Origin: Nitrospira sp.
GTDB taxonomy: Bacteria > Nitrospirota > Nitrospiria > Nitrospirales > Nitrospiraceae
DNA: 34,406 nucleotides
Assembly (NCBI GenBank): GCA_009885705.1
Contig: VFKF01000466.1
Span: forward strand, 1 to 34,406
Reading direction: 5' to 3'
Shown: positions 20,128 through 28,919 of the stretch, in pieces
How the letters are laid out: every line of letters starts with the position of its first letter
How positions within the stretch are numbered: the first letter of the stretch is position 1
The notes under the pieces: generated by a model
What the model saw: the letters and a program-made list of their open reading frames with translations, nothing else
Told to the model about the DNA's origin: nothing
Database searches by the model: none
Made by a program: the position numbers and the translations under genes

Positions 20128-20157
20128 TTGACCCATCATGAATTCTTGATGTATAAA
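20128..20157 (+). promoter_or_regulatory. arsR promoter with embedded ArsR operator
   Basis: TTGACC (20128-20133), 18-nt spacer, TATAAA (20152-20157); near-palindrome ATCATGAATTCTTGAT (20135-20150) in the spacer. Confidence 0.72.
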
Positions 20158-20163
20158 GGAGGC

Positions 20164-20484
20164 ATGACTATGCTGTCTGGGAAGAATCGAGCCAAAACAG
20201 CCGAGCTCTGTCATGCGCTGGCGGATGAGACCAGGCTGGATATTCTGGATCAGCTCAAGGAGGGCGAGCGGTGCGTCTGCGAACTGACCGATGCCCTTCA
20301 GACTGGGCAGTCGCGTCTATCTTTTCACTTAAAGGTATTGAAGGACGCAGGTTTGATTCTCGATCGACCGGAAGGCCGCTGGATTTACTACGCCATCAAT
20401 TCCGAAGCGGTTGCGGAGCTTGAAGCACTTGTCGGCTCGCTCAAAGCAACCAGGAAAACCGTTCGGCCTAGCTCGCGCTGTTAA
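20164..20484 (+). CDS. arsR: ArsR family metalloregulator
   Basis: LCHALADETRLDILDQLKEGERCVCELTDALQTGQSRLSFHLKVLKDAGLILDRPEGRWIYYAI; CVC metal-site motif and wHTH; ATG 20164 preferred (the ORF-track start 20128 lies in the -35 box). Confidence 0.93.
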   Translation: MTMLSGKNRAKTAELCHALADETRLDILDQLKEGERCVCELTDALQTGQSRLSFHLKVLKDAGLILDRPEGRWIYYAINSEAVAELEALVGSLKATRKTVRPSSRC

Positions 20485-20501
20485 CTTTTTTTGCTTAATC
20501 A

Positions 20502-20517
20502 ATCAAGTATTATTGAT
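20502..20517 (+). promoter_or_regulatory. Second ArsR-type operator upstream of acr3
   Basis: ATCAAGTATTATTGAT = ATCAA-N6-TTGAT, same geometry as the operator at 20135-20150. Confidence 0.6.
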
Positions 20518-20534
20518 GCCGTGGAGGTCCCGCA

Positions 20535-21611
20535 ATGAAAACGCCGCCGGTAGTAGAAAAGCAGCTGAATCCTTTTGAGCGCTATCTGACGATTTGGGTT
20601 GCGCTCTGCATGATCGTGGGTATCCTACTCGGGCAGGGGGCGCCGGACCTTGTCCAATCAGTGCGGGCGATGGAGTTCGGTCAAGGCAGCCATATCAACC
20701 TGCCAATTGCGGTGCTGATCTGGCTGATGATCGTGCCGATGATGATGAAAGTCGACTTCGCCTCGATTCGCCACGTCGGGACGCGTCCGACCGGGCTCGT
20801 GATTACGTTGTTGGTCAATTGGGTGGTCAAGCCGTTTTCGATGGCATTTTTCGCCTGGCTCTTCTTCCGCGTCGTGTTTGCCGCATGGATCACGCCTGCT
20901 GAAGCCGATCAGTACATTGCAGGGACGATCATTCTAGCTGCTGCCCCCTGCACCGCGATGGTCTTTGTCTGGAGCTATCTGACGGACGGAGACCCTGCCT
21001 ATACGTTGGTCCAAGTGTCCGTGAACGATCTCATTATGCTGGTGTTGTTTGCGCCGATTGTCGGGCTACTGGTAAGCGGTGCCTCGTCCTTATCCGTTCC
21101 CTTCGATGTCCTGCTGTATTCGGTCCTGGCGTTCATTGCGATTCCTCTGGCGATCGGGTGGGCACTCCGGACGTGGCTCGTGCGGCAACAGGGCCAGCGG
21201 TGGGTTGACGACGTGCTCTTGCCGAGATTCGCCCCGATCACCATTGTGGCCTTGCTCCTCACCTTGGTCTTTATCTTCGCCTTCCAGTCGCAGAACATCA
21301 TGGGCAAGACGGTTCACGTAGCCTTGATTGCCGTGCCGATCCTGCTTCAGGTGTATGTGAATGCGTCATTGGCCTATGGGCTCATGTATCGATTTCATGT
21401 GCCCTACGCGATTGCAGCTCCGGGTGCGTTGATCGGGGCCAGCAACTTTTTCGAATTGGCGGTGGCGACAGCCATTGCGCTGTTCGGGCCCGAGTCTGGT
21501 GCGGCCTTGGCAACGGTGGTGGGAGTATTGGTGGAGGTGCCGGTCATGTTGTCGGTCTGTGGGATTTGCAATCGGACCAGGCATTGGTTCAGGCCAGAGG
21601 TGGCAGCATGA
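20535..21611 (+). CDS. acr3: ACR3 family arsenite efflux transporter
   Basis: FERYLTIWVALCMIVGILLG, APCTAMVFVWSYLTDGDPAYTLVQVSVNDLIMLVLFAPIVGLL, multiple TM helices; flanked by arsR and arsC. Confidence 0.95.
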   Translation: MKTPPVVEKQLNPFERYLTIWVALCMIVGILLGQGAPDLVQSVRAMEFGQGSHINLPIAVLIWLMIVPMMMKVDFASIRHVGTRPTGLVITLLVNWVVKPFSMAFFAWLFFRVVFAAWITPAEADQYIAGTIILAAAPCTAMVFVWSYLTDGDPAYTLVQVSVNDLIMLVLFAPIVGLLVSGASSLSVPFDVLLYSVLAFIAIPLAIGWALRTWLVRQQGQRWVDDVLLPRFAPITIVALLLTLVFIFAFQSQNIMGKTVHVALIAVPILLQVYVNASLAYGLMYRFHVPYAIAAPGALIGASNFFELAVATAIALFGPESGAALATVVGVLVEVPVMLSVCGICNRTRHWFRPEVAA

Positions 21612-22033
21612 AGGAGCGGGTCCTCTTCCTCTGCACCGGCAATTCGGCTCGAAGCCAGATGGCGGAAGGTTGGTTGCGGCATCTAGCGGGCGACCGATTT
21701 GAGGTCTTCAGTGCGGGGACCCATCCGGTCGGTCTAAACCCAGGATCGGTGGAGGCCATGGCCGAGGTCGGGATCGATATCTCACAACACCGATCCAAAT
21801 CGGCGACGGAATTCACGGCCATGCCCATCGATTATGTGATCACGGTATGTGACCGCGCCAAAGAGACCTGTCCTCGTTGGTCAGGAGCCGTTCGACTTAT
21901 CCACTGGAGTTTCGACGATCCGGCAGCCCTGCCCGATGCGGCTGAACGCCGGCAAGTATTTCGGCGAGTCCGCGACGAAATCGCCACGGCGATTCGGCAG
22001 TTTCTGTCAGATCGAGAGAGGCAGGGAAGTTAA
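21608..22033 (+). CDS. arsC: Arsenate reductase, low-MW phosphatase/thioredoxin-coupled type
   Basis: MKERVLFLCTGNSARSQMAEGWLRHLAGDRFEVFSAGTHPVGLNP...VITVCDRAKETCPRW. Confidence 0.93.
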   Translation: MKERVLFLCTGNSARSQMAEGWLRHLAGDRFEVFSAGTHPVGLNPGSVEAMAEVGIDISQHRSKSATEFTAMPIDYVITVCDRAKETCPRWSGAVRLIHWSFDDPAALPDAAERRQVFRRVRDEIATAIRQFLSDRERQGS

Positions 22034-23070
22034 GCCGTGACCGAGCCGCCGCATGATGAGCCGGTTCCGGCGGTGCAGCCATAGCAATGGTTGCGGGTCG
22101 TGATCTGCCGCTGATTCAGTTGGACCGGATCGAAGTCGCGGATGTGGGCGGGCGCGCCATGGTCGATCGGCAGATCTAGCATTTGGTTGAAGTCGCAGTC
22201 GTAGAGCTTCCCATCCCAGCTCACGGAGATCGTGTAGCGGCACATGACACCGGCAGCGGCAGCGGGGTTGAAGGCGTTGGCTAACCGTTCCATATACTGC
22301 TCGTAGTTCCCACTCTCCACCAGAAACTCCAGGTATCGGCTCACCGGCATGTTGGTGATCGTGTAGAGATGGTTGAATTCGACCCCATGCTTAGCCTGGA
22401 GCTCTTTCCGGAACTGCGCTTCGATGGCCCCTTGCTTGGGCGGAAGAAAGGCGCCGACCGGATTGTAGACAAGGTTGAGGGCGAGGCCGCTGCCGGGCTG
22501 GCCATAGCCGAGCCGATTGAGCAGATGCAGGGCCTCGATCGATTTCTGAAAAATTCCGTCGCCCCGCTGAGCATCGGTTTGACTGGCCTGGTAGGAGGGG
22601 AGCGAGGCGATAATTTCGACCTGGTGAGCGGCCAGGAATTCGGCCAAGCCTGCCTGTGAAGGAATCAGCAGCACCGACAAATTACAGCGGTCCATCACAT
22701 GCCGTCCGAGTGTGCGGGCCTGTTCGACCAGCCAGCGAAAGTTGGGGTTCAATTCCGGCGCCCCCCCGGTAATATCTACCGTGGGAATATCCGTCTTGGC
22801 GAGAGCCTGCATGCAGAGTTCGGCTGTCTCACGTGACATGCTTTCCGTGCGATCGGGGCCTGCGTCCACATGACAATGGCGGCAGGTCTGGTTACAGAGT
22901 TTGCCGACGTTGATTTGGAAGACCGTCATTCCAGAGGCGTGGAGTGAAGACATCCCGGCCTGAGTCAGGCGGGTTTCAAAGGGAGTGAGCCCGGTTGTGG
23001 TGCCGAGAATGCGCAGCTGTTCAGTCGAAGAGGCGAGGGGATTGTGACGGCCTAGGAGGGTGAGCGCCAT
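22030..23070 (-). CDS. arsS: ArsS-type radical SAM/Cys-rich protein (arsenosugar biosynthesis)
   Basis: VGKLCNQTCRHCHVDAGPDRTESM (CxxxCxxC), C-terminal NHCYGCTAGTGSSCGGSVTA; start 23070 or 23088. Confidence 0.88.
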   Translation of the reverse strand: MALTLLGRHNPLASSTEQLRILGTTTGLTPFETRLTQAGMSSLHASGMTVFQINVGKLCNQTCRHCHVDAGPDRTESMSRETAELCMQALAKTDIPTVDITGGAPELNPNFRWLVEQARTLGRHVMDRCNLSVLLIPSQAGLAEFLAAHQVEIIASLPSYQASQTDAQRGDGIFQKSIEALHLLNRLGYGQPGSGLALNLVYNPVGAFLPPKQGAIEAQFRKELQAKHGVEFNHLYTITNMPVSRYLEFLVESGNYEQYMERLANAFNPAAAAGVMCRYTISVSWDGKLYDCDFNQMLDLPIDHGAPAHIRDFDPVQLNQRQITTRNHCYGCTAGTGSSCGGSVTA

Positions 23071-23078
23071 CGTCGCCT

Positions 23079-24266
23079 TTAGCAGCATCCGCCCGTCGGC
23101 GCGCAGTTCACCGCGTCGCCGCCCACAGGCAGGCTGGCGCGATTGAGGATGGCGAAGTGCGTGGCATAGCCCTCTGTTTCGAGCACCCTGCGTGTCTTGG
23201 AGCAGATTTCGACCGGTTCACCGCGCCGGAAGACATGGTGGTCATCATCATCCGCTTCCAGGAACGGGCCGGCCAAGAGGGCGTAGTCGCCTTTCCAGGA
23301 ACAGGGAACCTGTTCAGGCAGCACGGCCGTCCATCGCGGGTCCGCCCGGTTGAGCCACTGAGGAGCATCGGAGAGCATGAATAGTGATGCGAAGGGTGGT
23401 CGGCTCAGTAAGAGAGCCAGCTCCGGAGTGAGCGGCTGGGGAATCCCGCGTATGTACGTGGTGCCTCGCTCATCGACCACGCGGCTGAAGGGGCCACAAA
23501 GGGTGGCGTAACGCGCCGGGCGTACGGGTGCATCAGCGGGAAGCTTGTAGCCGGTCAAGGTGACGGAGAAGAAATGGATGCCGTCGATCCGTTGCCAGGG
23601 GGACGATGTGAGGAGATGAAGACCGACGAACCCGGCTTCGGTCATTCCCGCCATGTAGTCGGTCAACGTCAGGGCGCCGGATAAACAGTCGCCCCATTTC
23701 TCCGCATCATGTGCCAGATATTGCGGCACGGGCTGGTCGGCGACGATATCGGAAATTGTGAACCGCCCGCCCGGCTTGGCCACGCGGAACATCTCGCGAA
23801 AGACCTTCCGCTTGTCGGGAGCCAGGTTGATCACGCAGTTTGAAATAATTAGGTCGATGGTGTTGTCGGTGACCGGCATGGCGTCGGCCATCCCCTTCTT
23901 AAACTCGACATTGGAAGCGGGATAGCCAAGGTTGGTGGCGACCACGACGGCGTGCTTGCGGGCGATCTCCAGCATCGTATCGGTCATATCGATGCCGATC
24001 ACGCGACCGGTCGGACCGACGAGGCGCGAGGCTTCAAAACAGTCGATGCCGCCACCGGAGCCGATGTCCAGCACCGTTTCGCCTGGACTGACCGTTTTCA
24101 GTCCGGCGGGGGTGCCGCAGCCGTAGGAAATCTTGAGGACCTCATCCGGGATGAAGGATTTGAGGTTCGCCATGTCGTAATTGGTCGGGCAGCACATCTG
24201 CTCACCCGTATTGGCGGCCCTGGCGTAGCGCTCGCTGACTTTCTGCTCAATTTCGTCGATGGGCAT
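23079..24266 (-). CDS. arsM: ArsM-type arsenite methyltransferase with C-terminal extension
   Basis: CCPTNYD, ISYGCGTPAGLKTVSPGETVLDIGSGGGIDCFEASRLVG, LIISNCVINLAPDKRKVFREMFRVAKPGGRFTISDIV; C-terminus NCAPTGGCC. Confidence 0.9.
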   Translation of the reverse strand: MPIDEIEQKVSERYARAANTGEQMCCPTNYDMANLKSFIPDEVLKISYGCGTPAGLKTVSPGETVLDIGSGGGIDCFEASRLVGPTGRVIGIDMTDTMLEIARKHAVVVATNLGYPASNVEFKKGMADAMPVTDNTIDLIISNCVINLAPDKRKVFREMFRVAKPGGRFTISDIVADQPVPQYLAHDAEKWGDCLSGALTLTDYMAGMTEAGFVGLHLLTSSPWQRIDGIHFFSVTLTGYKLPADAPVRPARYATLCGPFSRVVDERGTTYIRGIPQPLTPELALLLSRPPFASLFMLSDAPQWLNRADPRWTAVLPEQVPCSWKGDYALLAGPFLEADDDDHHVFRRGEPVEICSKTRRVLETEGYATHFAILNRASLPVGGDAVNCAPTGGCC

Positions 24267-24418
24267 CGTGTCCTCGCGGTTTGGCAGAGAGATGGATGGC
24301 TTTCCATGTATCAATACTGACGCCTGTCCGTCAACTCCTGCCTAATTCTGGCGATTTGTCCTGCGACAGGCCTTCTGAGAGTCGGGCGGCAAACGTGTTT
24401 CTTACAAAGGGATCTGCG

Positions 24419-25767: not shown

Positions 25768-26325
25768 TCAGAAGAGCTTGGGTGGAGCGAGAGGATCGAC
25801 CGGTTGAGGGTAGACGATCCTGTCTCCGTCGATGACGGCGAACGGCGTCAGGCGATGTTCGTCTGCCTTGACCGGCGAGAGAATATGTCTGACCGTCCAG
25901 CCCCTGCTTATGAGCGCATCGGCAATCAAGGATCGGTGGCAGCGCCAGGGGACAGCTTCGGCACACATGATCGCGATGGGACCGTTCCTGCCATAGGTCA
26001 TGAGCTCTTGTAGCGCATTCCAGAACTCGCCCTGCTGCATATAGTCGGCATAGCCTCGAAAGCTGGCATTTCTCCATCCATCATTGATCGAATCCTTTCG
26101 GGCCTTTCGCAGGCCGCCAAGCGCTGGCATGTGGAGATAGGTGAGGCTTGCCTCCCTCAGGGTTTCGGCGAGAGTTTCTGAGTTGAATTGTGGGTTGTGC
26201 CGCGACCGTGGAACGGTTCGCACGTCGACGAGGAGATTGATAGAATGGGCAGGGAGAAGATCGGTGAACTCACTGATCGGTCTGGTCGAATGGCCGATGG
26301 TCCAGATGGTCGGTGGGTCAGGCAT
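25768..26325 (-). CDS. DUF488 family protein
   Basis: IWTIGHSTRPISEFTDLLPAHSINLLVDVRTVPRSRHNPQFN...IAIMCAEAVPWRCHRSLIADAL. Confidence 0.93.
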   Translation of the reverse strand: MPDPPTIWTIGHSTRPISEFTDLLPAHSINLLVDVRTVPRSRHNPQFNSETLAETLREASLTYLHMPALGGLRKARKDSINDGWRNASFRGYADYMQQGEFWNALQELMTYGRNGPIAIMCAEAVPWRCHRSLIADALISRGWTVRHILSPVKADEHRLTPFAVIDGDRIVYPQPVDPLAPPKLF

Positions 26326-26379: not shown

Positions 26380-26871
26380 TCAATCCGGCGGCAATTTATC
26401 GGGATCGATTTCAAGGAGCCGCAATCGGCCGTTGGTAATGTGTTCGGTCTTGTAGAGGCGGTCGCCCAGTTGCATCGTGCCGACGAGCAGCGACCCGTTG
26501 ACGACAAAGGTGAAGTCCCCCTTCGAGGGCGGTTTGAAGGTGCCGCGGATCACGGCAGTATCGTTGCTGCGGGAGATGGTCGAGGAGATATCCAGCTCAT
26601 AGTTGGCACCATCGAACAGTTCGACGGTAATTCTGGGATGGGGCCTAGCTCCGGCATCCTTGAGGACCTGGAGCAGGGGAAGGTCGAGCACGATCTCACG
26701 ATCGCGGAGTACCCAGGGCCTGCGCGGCGTCGGTTGATCGGTCGCGGGAGGAGCCGGGACTGTCTGCCATAAGCTTTTCGGAGCCGGACGTTCATCGGCC
26801 GAGACGATCTGAGGGATGACCCCGCTCAGCATTGCTACGGTGAGAAGCAGTTGAGTCAATCGATGGACCAC
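26380..26871 (-). CDS. Secreted stand-alone propeptide-like protein, homologous to the prodomain of the adjacent metalloprotease
   Basis: Signal peptide, then ~110 aa co-linear with residues preceding the protease domain of the neighbouring gene (LFD, LD, RG, GT, RLYK, RL.E.D...LPPD); ends exactly at LPPD. Confidence 0.8.
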   Translation of the reverse strand: MVHRLTQLLLTVAMLSGVIPQIVSADERPAPKSLWQTVPAPPATDQPTPRRPWVLRDREIVLDLPLLQVLKDAGARPHPRITVELFDGANYELDISSTISRSNDTAVIRGTFKPPSKGDFTFVVNGSLLVGTMQLGDRLYKTEHITNGRLRLLEIDPDKLPPD

Positions 26872-26985
26872 AGAGTCGTCTCCTTATGTCTCGGGTCGAG
26901 TGCCGTTCGATCATTATATAGAGCGGAACGGCTGGGTGCGATGGTGAAGGGTGCAGGAGTCTCGCTCGTGGGTATGTCCTTGCGG

Positions 26986-28407
26986 TTAGGGGGAGACGAC
27001 TCTCAAGTTGGTCGGCGCAGCCGGAGGCGTCAGATTTGCGACCGATGTACGCCAGGCAGCGACTGTTTGACGCACGTCGTTCATGGAGCGGGCATTGTCG
27101 GCAGAGTTTGCCGGATCGGCGCTGTAGTCGATCCCGGCCGGTCTGCCGTTGATGAGGATGTTTGGGTTGGAAAAGTACTTCACGCGCGGGCAGGAGACGG
27201 TCGGGCAGGCGTAGGCCATGATCGTCCTGAATTTTCCGATTTCGTCCCGGTATCCGAACGAATAGGGAGAGACTCCCGTGCCGCCCGTGGCCCGGTCATG
27301 TGCGTTGCCCATGTTATGGCCCATCTCGTGAGCGAGGGTATTGTTCGCGACGCAGTCGCGCGCCGTCACGCTGAACGCGGAACTGGCGAAACTGGCCCGA
27401 GGGCCGTTCGCCATGACATAGGCGATGCCGCAATAGCCGCCGCCGTTGTCGACGATCAACGCAACGAGATCGGCCCGGTACTGATCGCGCAGCTGATGGA
27501 CTTGATCCATGATTCCGTCGGTCGTGCTCCGCAAGCGAGAGAGATCGGTATCGATGACACCCGATTCCGTATAGGCCACCTCGGCCATATGGACAAGCTG
27601 GAGCTGCATAGCGATCCGGCTGTTACTGTAGGCTTGATTCGCCGAATCGACGCCTAACTGGATCAACGCCTCGATCGCCGCCTGGCCGCCTTCCTGGGTT
27701 TTCGCCGCGGTCGTGTAGACCACCAGCAGGTCGACAAGGGTATCGCCGACTGCTGCGGCAGTCGGATCGGTAGGCGGCGCCGTTCCTCCGGCAGGAGGAG
27801 CGGCGCTGGCGGTCGCGTCGTCGGCGACGACGAGGGGATGGTGATCCGGGGGGAGGGACTCCTCGTCCACTTCCACCAGTCGGTGAGCGATTCCGCCGGT
27901 CGATTCGATCTTGTACAGACGTTGGTTCGACAGAATCGTCCCGGCGATGGTCGTGCCCTGAGCGACCAAGGTGACGTCGCTCCCTGCCTCTCCCCGCAGC
28001 CGTCCCCGCCAGATTTTCGTCTGTTTCGGATGCTCGCGCAGCGGCTCGAGATCCAGCACTCGCGTTCCGGCATCGAAGAGGTTCATCGTGACTTCCGGTT
28101 GCGCCTCAACGCGTGGGCGATGTAAGAGCTCGAGCGCGGCAGGGTTGAGCGTCATGCTGCGATGCCGCCTCACCCATCGTTTGGTGATCGGTGGCGTCGG
28201 CAGTGCCTGGGCGATAGGAGGAGGTATGACGCTTGGGGTCTCTGAGAATAACGGAGTCTGGGGTGGCGTCGACGCACCTTTGACGAGGGGAGGGGTCCCG
28301 AAGGTCATCGCACCGAGACAGAGGACTATCGCACTCGCTGTACGCAACGAGTGTCGGTGCATTGCACCGTTTTTCAGTGGCAGTGGATGCGGGGTCATCG
28401 GCTCCAT
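26986..28407 (-). CDS. Secreted reprolysin-like (M12-type) zinc metallopeptidase with N-terminal propeptide
   Basis: HEMGHNMGNAHD zinc motif (HExxHxxGxxH); propeptide-like N-terminal region; C-terminal stub TPPAAPTNLRVVSP. RBS GGGAGGG before ATG 28407. Confidence 0.88.
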   Translation of the reverse strand: MEPMTPHPLPLKNGAMHRHSLRTASAIVLCLGAMTFGTPPLVKGASTPPQTPLFSETPSVIPPPIAQALPTPPITKRWVRRHRSMTLNPAALELLHRPRVEAQPEVTMNLFDAGTRVLDLEPLREHPKQTKIWRGRLRGEAGSDVTLVAQGTTIAGTILSNQRLYKIESTGGIAHRLVEVDEESLPPDHHPLVVADDATASAAPPAGGTAPPTDPTAAAVGDTLVDLLVVYTTAAKTQEGGQAAIEALIQLGVDSANQAYSNSRIAMQLQLVHMAEVAYTESGVIDTDLSRLRSTTDGIMDQVHQLRDQYRADLVALIVDNGGGYCGIAYVMANGPRASFASSAFSVTARDCVANNTLAHEMGHNMGNAHDRATGGTGVSPYSFGYRDEIGKFRTIMAYACPTVSCPRVKYFSNPNILINGRPAGIDYSADPANSADNARSMNDVRQTVAAWRTSVANLTPPAAPTNLRVVSP

Positions 28408-28607: not shown

Positions 28608-28919
28608 TCATATCTTCGAGGCGAGAGAGGCCCAGGCGAGGAGATCGTCCGGCGCTTCTAAGATGTCGACCTGAACCTCATAATAATTCTTGAGCGTCTG
28701 AGTGGAGGTGGGAGTGAAGGGCTTCATGCCCCGGTCTTTGTATAGACTGATCGTCTTTGGGGTCACTTTAAAGTAGAGCCGGCCCTTGTGGATAATGCCG
28801 AAGAACCGGTCCCCTTGGTAGAGTCCGTATCCACCGAACATGGCGCGGGAGGTCAGGCCCCGCAACCCGCTGAGTTGATCCAGAACGAAGTCTCGAAACC
28901 CGTCGTGTTTCGGTGCCAT
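28608..28919 (-). CDS. TfoX N-terminal domain protein
   Basis: FVLDQLSGLRGLTSRAMFGGYGLYQGDRFFGIIHKGRLYFKVTPKT. Confidence 0.88.
   Translation of the reverse strand: MAPKHDGFRDFVLDQLSGLRGLTSRAMFGGYGLYQGDRFFGIIHKGRLYFKVTPKTISLYKDRGMKPFTPTSTQTLKNYYEVQVDILEAPDDLLAWASLASKI

Follow-up and report, generated by a model that had tools for sequence, protein, structure and literature searches.

A stand-alone prodomain-like protein encoded beside a reprolysin-like metalloprotease in Nitrospira, and its retention where the protease is lost

Does a secreted protein which matches the propeptide of the protease encoded next to it act on that protease in trans, or has it acquired a role of its own? This question is raised by contig VFKF01000466.1, part of a MAG from the Nitrospira family, the whole 34,406 nt of which constitute the window analyzed here. 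A minus-strand gene at positions 26986 to 28407 encodes a secreted, reprolysin-like zinc metalloprotease of 473 aa and is followed on the same strand, across a 114-bp spacer (26872 to 26985) in which that strand has no terminator-like site, by a GTG-initiated open reading frame (26380 to 26871) encoding a prodomain-like protein of 163 aa, here termed the orphan. The orphan opens with a hydrophobic leader, of which aa 1 to 25 (26797 to 26871, minus strand) form a predicted signal peptide ending VSA/DE in the window copy; a strict A-x-A site, typically AWA/DE, occurs in 34 of 63 orthologue leaders, which suggests that the leader is cleavable. The remainder is represented by a cysteine-free domain rich in beta structure in its AlphaFold2 model (the beta-domain, aa 33 to 163; 26383 to 26775, minus strand), which terminates in LPPD. 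The pair is flanked upstream by a small TfoX-like gene (28608 to 28919) and downstream by a DUF488-like gene (25768 to 26325), both on the minus strand and named by sequence inspection. Inspection also indicates an arsenic-type block at positions 20128 to 24314 of the window, apparently comprising an ArsR-like regulator, an open reading frame of transporter size, a low-molecular-weight phosphatase/ArsC-like protein, an ArsM-like methyltransferase and an arsenosugar-type radical SAM protein, and the methyltransferase and radical SAM genes of this block are syntenic near many orphan loci.

The orphan yielded no significant match to Pfam or NCBIfam. BLASTP, in a single comparison, aligned its residues 8 to 163 with residues 28 to 188 of the protease over 161 columns, from the leader to the last orphan residue (31% identity, 44% positives, E = 1e-19), while a profile of 63 orphans recovered the cis prodomain of the window genome (aa 46 to 188; 27844 to 28272, minus strand) with an E value of 1e-23, and a tblastn search of the whole genome with the protease identified the orphan as the sole second site (E = 8e-18). 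These BLASTP and profile matches to cis prodomains establish homology with the domain preceding the reprolysin catalytic domain, a likeness which extends from end to end and is far beyond chance. The proposal in an earlier note on this DNA that the orphan is a complete domain with its own signal sequence, encoded beside the protease, is supported. The same note held that the orphan stops exactly at the end of the propeptide, which is accurate in that the whole beta-domain is present but requires amendment at the C terminus: the last orphan residue is the D of LPPD, aligned with D188, from which the cis copy continues ...LPPDHHPLVVADD... The cis-only tail, D188-H-H190-P191-L-V-V194 (27826 to 27846, minus strand), carries four residues (D188, H190, P191, and V194) which are invariant in 35 proteases, whereas the stand-alone Nitrospira copies end at PPD or similar and are missing the cis D-x-H-P. 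No C-terminal latency tail, be it a Cys switch or an equivalent, was present in the orphans, and most of their mature parts contain no Cys. The orphan comprises the entire folded beta-domain minus the tail which leads into the catalytic domain.

The protease possesses a reprolysin domain (Pfam Reprolysin_4, 83 bits; Reprolysin_5, 77.7 bits) and an HExxHxxGxxH zinc site, HEMGHNMGNAH (27298 to 27330, minus strand), in which H360, E361, G363, H364, N365, G367, and H370 are invariant in 35 proteases. Among NCBIfam models it scored 156.7 bits against Mep72 (cut-off, 645) and 42.7 bits against metallo_CpaA, both far under the cut-offs; as the former falls short of the equivalog threshold, the enzyme (family M12B) is best described from its profile scores as Mep72-like rather than as Mep72.

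The AlphaFold2 model of the orphan (pLDDT 85, with values of about 90 to 96 over most of residues 51 to 160) was compared with the PDB, and its first six matches were the CpaB chains of entry 6o38 (E = 8e-4 to 9e-3, probability 1.00), followed by a seventh match with an E value of 0.2 and, at rank 15, by the ADAM17 prodomain (8snm; E = 0.58). Chains G, H, K, L, M, and N of 6o38 (117 to 130 residues) were assigned to CpaB, and chains A, C, and F (514 to 573 residues) to CpaA, on the basis of their lengths and the associated papers. For the protease, the model is of low overall quality (pLDDT 55.6), and for this reason the zymogen interface which it implies was discarded; at this quality, its best fold matches were the ADAM17 zymogens 8snl, 9q7y, and 9o54 (E = 3e-6 to 3e-5) together with CpaA, and CpaB chains were matched by its prodomain part as well. 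The likeness between CpaB and the orphan is structural only: the orphan-family sequence profiles (A1 and A3) did not find 6o38/CpaB in the PDB up to an E value of 10, and the top match of a mixed profile of cis and stand-alone copies was the ADAM17 propeptide at a nonsignificant E value of 0.46. The model comparisons suggest, but do not prove, a common fold for CpaB, the prodomains of ADAM17 type, and the orphan family.

To what extent the two genes belong together was assessed across 175 genomes of the family Nitrospiraceae. The orphan was present in 87 of these, in one case as a short partial match at a contig end; genomes G138 and G142, which are matched only via the prodomain of the protease itself, are not included among the 87. 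An orthologous catalytic domain was identified in 46 genomes, in addition to four distant metzincins, and 44 of these 46 encode the orphan directly downstream of the protease on the same strand, so that about half of the orphan-bearing genomes have the protease as a partner. Such pairs reside in at least three unrelated gene neighborhoods, being located between methyltransferase/TfoX and DUF488 genes in the genus of the window, within a different block in a second large genus, and within a third block in a divergent group, O-A. The conserved adjacency in relatives which the earlier note had proposed as a check is, therefore, widespread, and the occurrence of the pair in 44 genomes, with orthologues in closed assemblies, rules out a MAG artefact. 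Tandem duplicates are, however, born adjacent, which makes adjacency alone weaker evidence of a functional pair. In G138 and G142 the protease is present without an orphan although the contig continues, and the orphan is accordingly not indispensable to the protease. The protease frame of G138 (L117:6711-8936, minus strand) spans 741 aa and matches the family in its first 432 residues only, and the gene was possibly fused or altered after the orphan was lost. In the closed genome G048 (L103:6182-10430, plus strand), two orphan lineages lie side by side, an O-A pair being followed some 2 kb on by a separate, solo orphan of the group O-B.

In approximately 43 genomes the orphan occurs without an adjacent protease. 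At least 30 of these solo-orphan genomes are 90% or more complete, three of them (G092, G046, and G116) are single-contig assemblies, and assembly gaps are ruled out as the explanation in such genomes and wherever one contig spans both flanks. A whole-protease profile applied to 21 solo genomes left 18 without any further metzincin of this class, the exceptions (G158, G085, and G117) each having one distant metzincin elsewhere, and a Reprolysin_4 search of the solo genomes agreed. Solo relatives of the window can be aligned across both flanks, with the TfoX-like and DUF488-like genes kept and the protease alone missing; in the four closest of them, roughly 110 to 160 bp remain where it would lie. 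A search of 34 solo loci for protease remnants revealed no clear one, the only trace being a 25-residue match in L003 with an E value of 0.22. In G131 (L118:2015-2826, minus strand), by contrast, the last 69 protease residues survive, interrupted by in-frame stops and adjoining an intact orphan, between flanks which are approximately 94% identical to those of a paired relative. Taken with the clean syntenic absences, this scar indicates that protease loss with retention of the orphan does happen, and the paired or solo state requires nine changes on the orphan tree.

Stand-alone copies beside a metzincin were also identified in two other Nitrospirota families. At L113:4078-6862 (minus strand; G332), a 212-aa stand-alone prodomain is encoded downstream of a 658-aa metzincin and, in contrast to the orphans of Nitrospira, retains a tail (FPDEEQPIPIS), in which Q replaces the H of the corresponding cis sequence (SMHPRPV). 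At L112:3788-7257 (minus strand; G323), a 175-aa copy is encoded upstream of a 975-aa metzincin, and a block of approximately 60 residues is nearly identical between this copy and the cis one, a sign of recent gene conversion or duplication. An AU test rejected a single clade for all stand-alone copies (P = 5e-5), a result to which gene conversion in L112 could contribute, and those of these two families are probably separate in origin from the orphans of the Nitrospiraceae. No such stand-alone neighbor was observed for the related metzincins examined elsewhere; with respect to plasmid-borne genes, the comparison covered two environmental relatives, both devoid of a stand-alone neighbor.

Phylogenetic analysis of 111 domains over 112 columns, in which the inner forks are partly unresolved, grouped all Nitrospiraceae orphans in a single clade (support, 100/96), from which the cis prodomains are separated. 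The deepest split among the orphans divides O-A, with six loci, each paired with a protease which is just as divergent, from O-B, which contains the window orphan and harbors both paired and solo copies. Reading frames were intact in the stand-alone copies examined, and codon models returned omega values of 0.090 to 0.096 for paired O-B orphans, 0.217 for O-A, and 0.054 to 0.165 for solo orphans, as against 0.135 to 0.171 for the cis prodomains. Constraint on the stand-alone copies thus equals or exceeds that on the attached ones in most groups, and purifying selection is not relaxed overall where the orphan is solo.

The orphans further possess a set of conserved positions, most of which fall within aa 71 to 150 (26422 to 26661, minus strand). 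In O-B these comprise K71, A73, A75, R76, P77, E92, S97, T98, R101, R109, K113, N147, G148, and P157, which are kept in ancient solo and paired copies alike and not in cis prodomains; most are not conserved in O-A, where S97 is kept too. A second set (W53, L67, D119, G131, D156, and D163) shows the reverse, being maintained in all groups which are associated with a protease and relaxed in the ancient solo copies, a pattern which is suggestive only. The simplest reading is that the orphan has two jobs, one linked to the protease and one not, and selection in solo genomes strongly indicates a function independent of the protease in the clade of the window.

It is tentatively proposed that the orphan derives from a metzincin prodomain which became a separate gene long ago, that it serves as a CpaB-like prodomain in trans, and that it has gained a protease-independent function. 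For the paired genomes, an exported protease accompanied by a trans prodomain is the best reading: the orphan would be exported to the periplasm, where its barrel would dock on the metzincin catalytic domain and either aid folding of the protease or hold it quiet until secretion. The cis domain would consist of the barrel plus an active-site plug, and the stand-alone protein of the barrel without the plug. Because the orphan has no C-terminal tail of the kind that reaches the zinc site in zymogens and in CpaB, it is envisaged to act mainly as a chaperone or holdase, the plug being supplied by the cis prodomain. In the lineage of the window, the domain is additionally presumed to have gained a function which does not involve the protease and is borne by the orphan-specific patch, and this would explain how the orphan survives repeated protease loss. 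The trans-acting prodomain pair suggested in the earlier note is consistent with the predicted CpaB-like fold and the adjacency, but falls short as a full account: an orphan kept under selection in some 43 genomes without an adjacent protease must have a role beyond solely inhibiting or chaperoning that protease.

The nearest parallel is CpaA-CpaB of medically relevant Acinetobacter, in which the metzincin gene is likewise followed directly downstream by that of its partner. CpaB is required for the stability and secretion of CpaA, whose active site its C-terminal tail blocks (PMC7542363, PMC4713064). The orphan shares the predicted fold and, like CpaB, is presumed to be periplasmic. CpaB, however, is membrane anchored and carries the active-site tail, whereas the orphan has no residues beyond the beta-domain, and hence no tail of the CpaB type, and is apparently soluble; the Nitrospira protease, moreover, retains its own cis prodomain, and the orphan often survives without a protease, such that solo copies do not display the CpaB trait of adjoining a metzincin substrate. 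GspK-like genes were found in most genomes, but the search also scores in organisms without a T2SS, and it was uninformative as to T2SS dependence. ADAM17 (M12B) offers a second parallel, in that its cis prodomain appears to resemble that of the Nitrospira protease in modeled fold and zymogen arrangement. On the catalytic domain of ADAM17, the prodomain barrel occupies the face away from the cleft, the zinc is plugged by the C-terminal tail, and ADAM17 made without the prodomain fails to traffic (PMC12184519). The ADAM17 prodomain is always in cis and employs a cysteine switch, in place of which the Nitrospira protease has no Cys and an invariant D-x-H-P.

A doubtful alternative, though the best of those considered, is that a duplicated prodomain was recruited in the distant past to a periplasmic task unrelated to the protease, such as binding another client or ligand, its adjacency being a relic of tandem birth. 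The solo genomes, mostly without a metzincin of this class and including the three single-contig assemblies, the undiminished constraint in solo lineages, and a patch which is independent of protease presence would all be expected on this account. It is less easily reconciled with the retention of the orphan directly downstream of 44 of 46 proteases, in three contexts and despite divergence to 31% identity, with the absence of the patch from O-A, the most divergent paired group (six of six loci paired), or with the second set of residues, which protease-associated domains have in common.

Even less probable is a dedicated inhibitor which blocks the neighboring protease by binding to its mature form in the periplasm, with other or foreign metalloproteases as the targets of solo copies. 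Beyond the identity of the domain, such a role has precedent in SUB1-ProM, a stand-alone propeptide-like inhibitor encoded beside its protease (PMC6993865), and in BamI, which is encoded beside Mep72, is co-transcribed with it, binds it, and relieves its toxicity (PMC4334185), the Nitrospira protease being itself Mep72-like. SUB1-ProM and the I29-family inhibitors (PMC6993865, PMC4089206) share with the orphan the synteny of a stand-alone propeptide paralogue with protease genes; they are, however, proven inhibitors belonging to subtilisin or cathepsin families with unrelated folds, whereas the orphan is a likely tail-less metzincin prodomain. The Mep72-BamI system of Pseudomonas aeruginosa similarly combines a related catalytic domain with an adjacent partner gene and so gives, after CpaA-CpaB, a further precedent for a partner encoded next to a protease of this class, although bamI flanks its protease gene on the opposite side, preceding it in the construct and operon of the cited study, and its product BamI (PA2782) is described as partly unfolded. 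The orphan, for its part, has neither the tail due to enter the cleft nor a Cys switch, most solo genomes contain no metzincin target, and two genomes possess the protease without the orphan. With that tail missing, the analogy to I9-type inhibitors drawn in the earlier note is weaker than that to a chaperone, and an inhibitory role is accordingly the less likely of the two.

That the orphan is nonfunctional, either a decayed protease (or chance open reading frame) or a duplicate awaiting loss, can be set aside as extremely improbable, for while it is a partial copy of a neighboring gene in a family in which protease loss occurs, its homology, intact frame, omega of 0.05 to 0.22, and single old clade contradict the decay which the earlier note had named as its refutation, and in G131 it is the protease that has decayed.

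No earlier report of an M12B prodomain fold occurring alone in bacteria was found in the open-licence papers which were searched, and the family described here would represent such a fold living alone under selection. CpaB-like action in trans, as proposed for the paired genomes, offers a testable account of how metzincin-dedicated chaperones of the CpaB type arose, namely by the movement of a prodomain into trans. With cis and trans copies in the same pair, together with natural losses of the protease, Nitrospira renders the chaperone, inhibitor and autonomous roles experimentally separable. It is conceivable, if short of probable, that a metzincin prodomain has here escaped its protease and been turned into a periplasmic protein which functions autonomously, has a conserved binding patch of its own, and outlasts the loss of the protease; CpaB, ADAM prodomains and the orphan family would then form one superfamily, in which a latency and folding domain has repeatedly become a separate gene, in the Nitrospiraceae clade and in two further families of the Nitrospirota.
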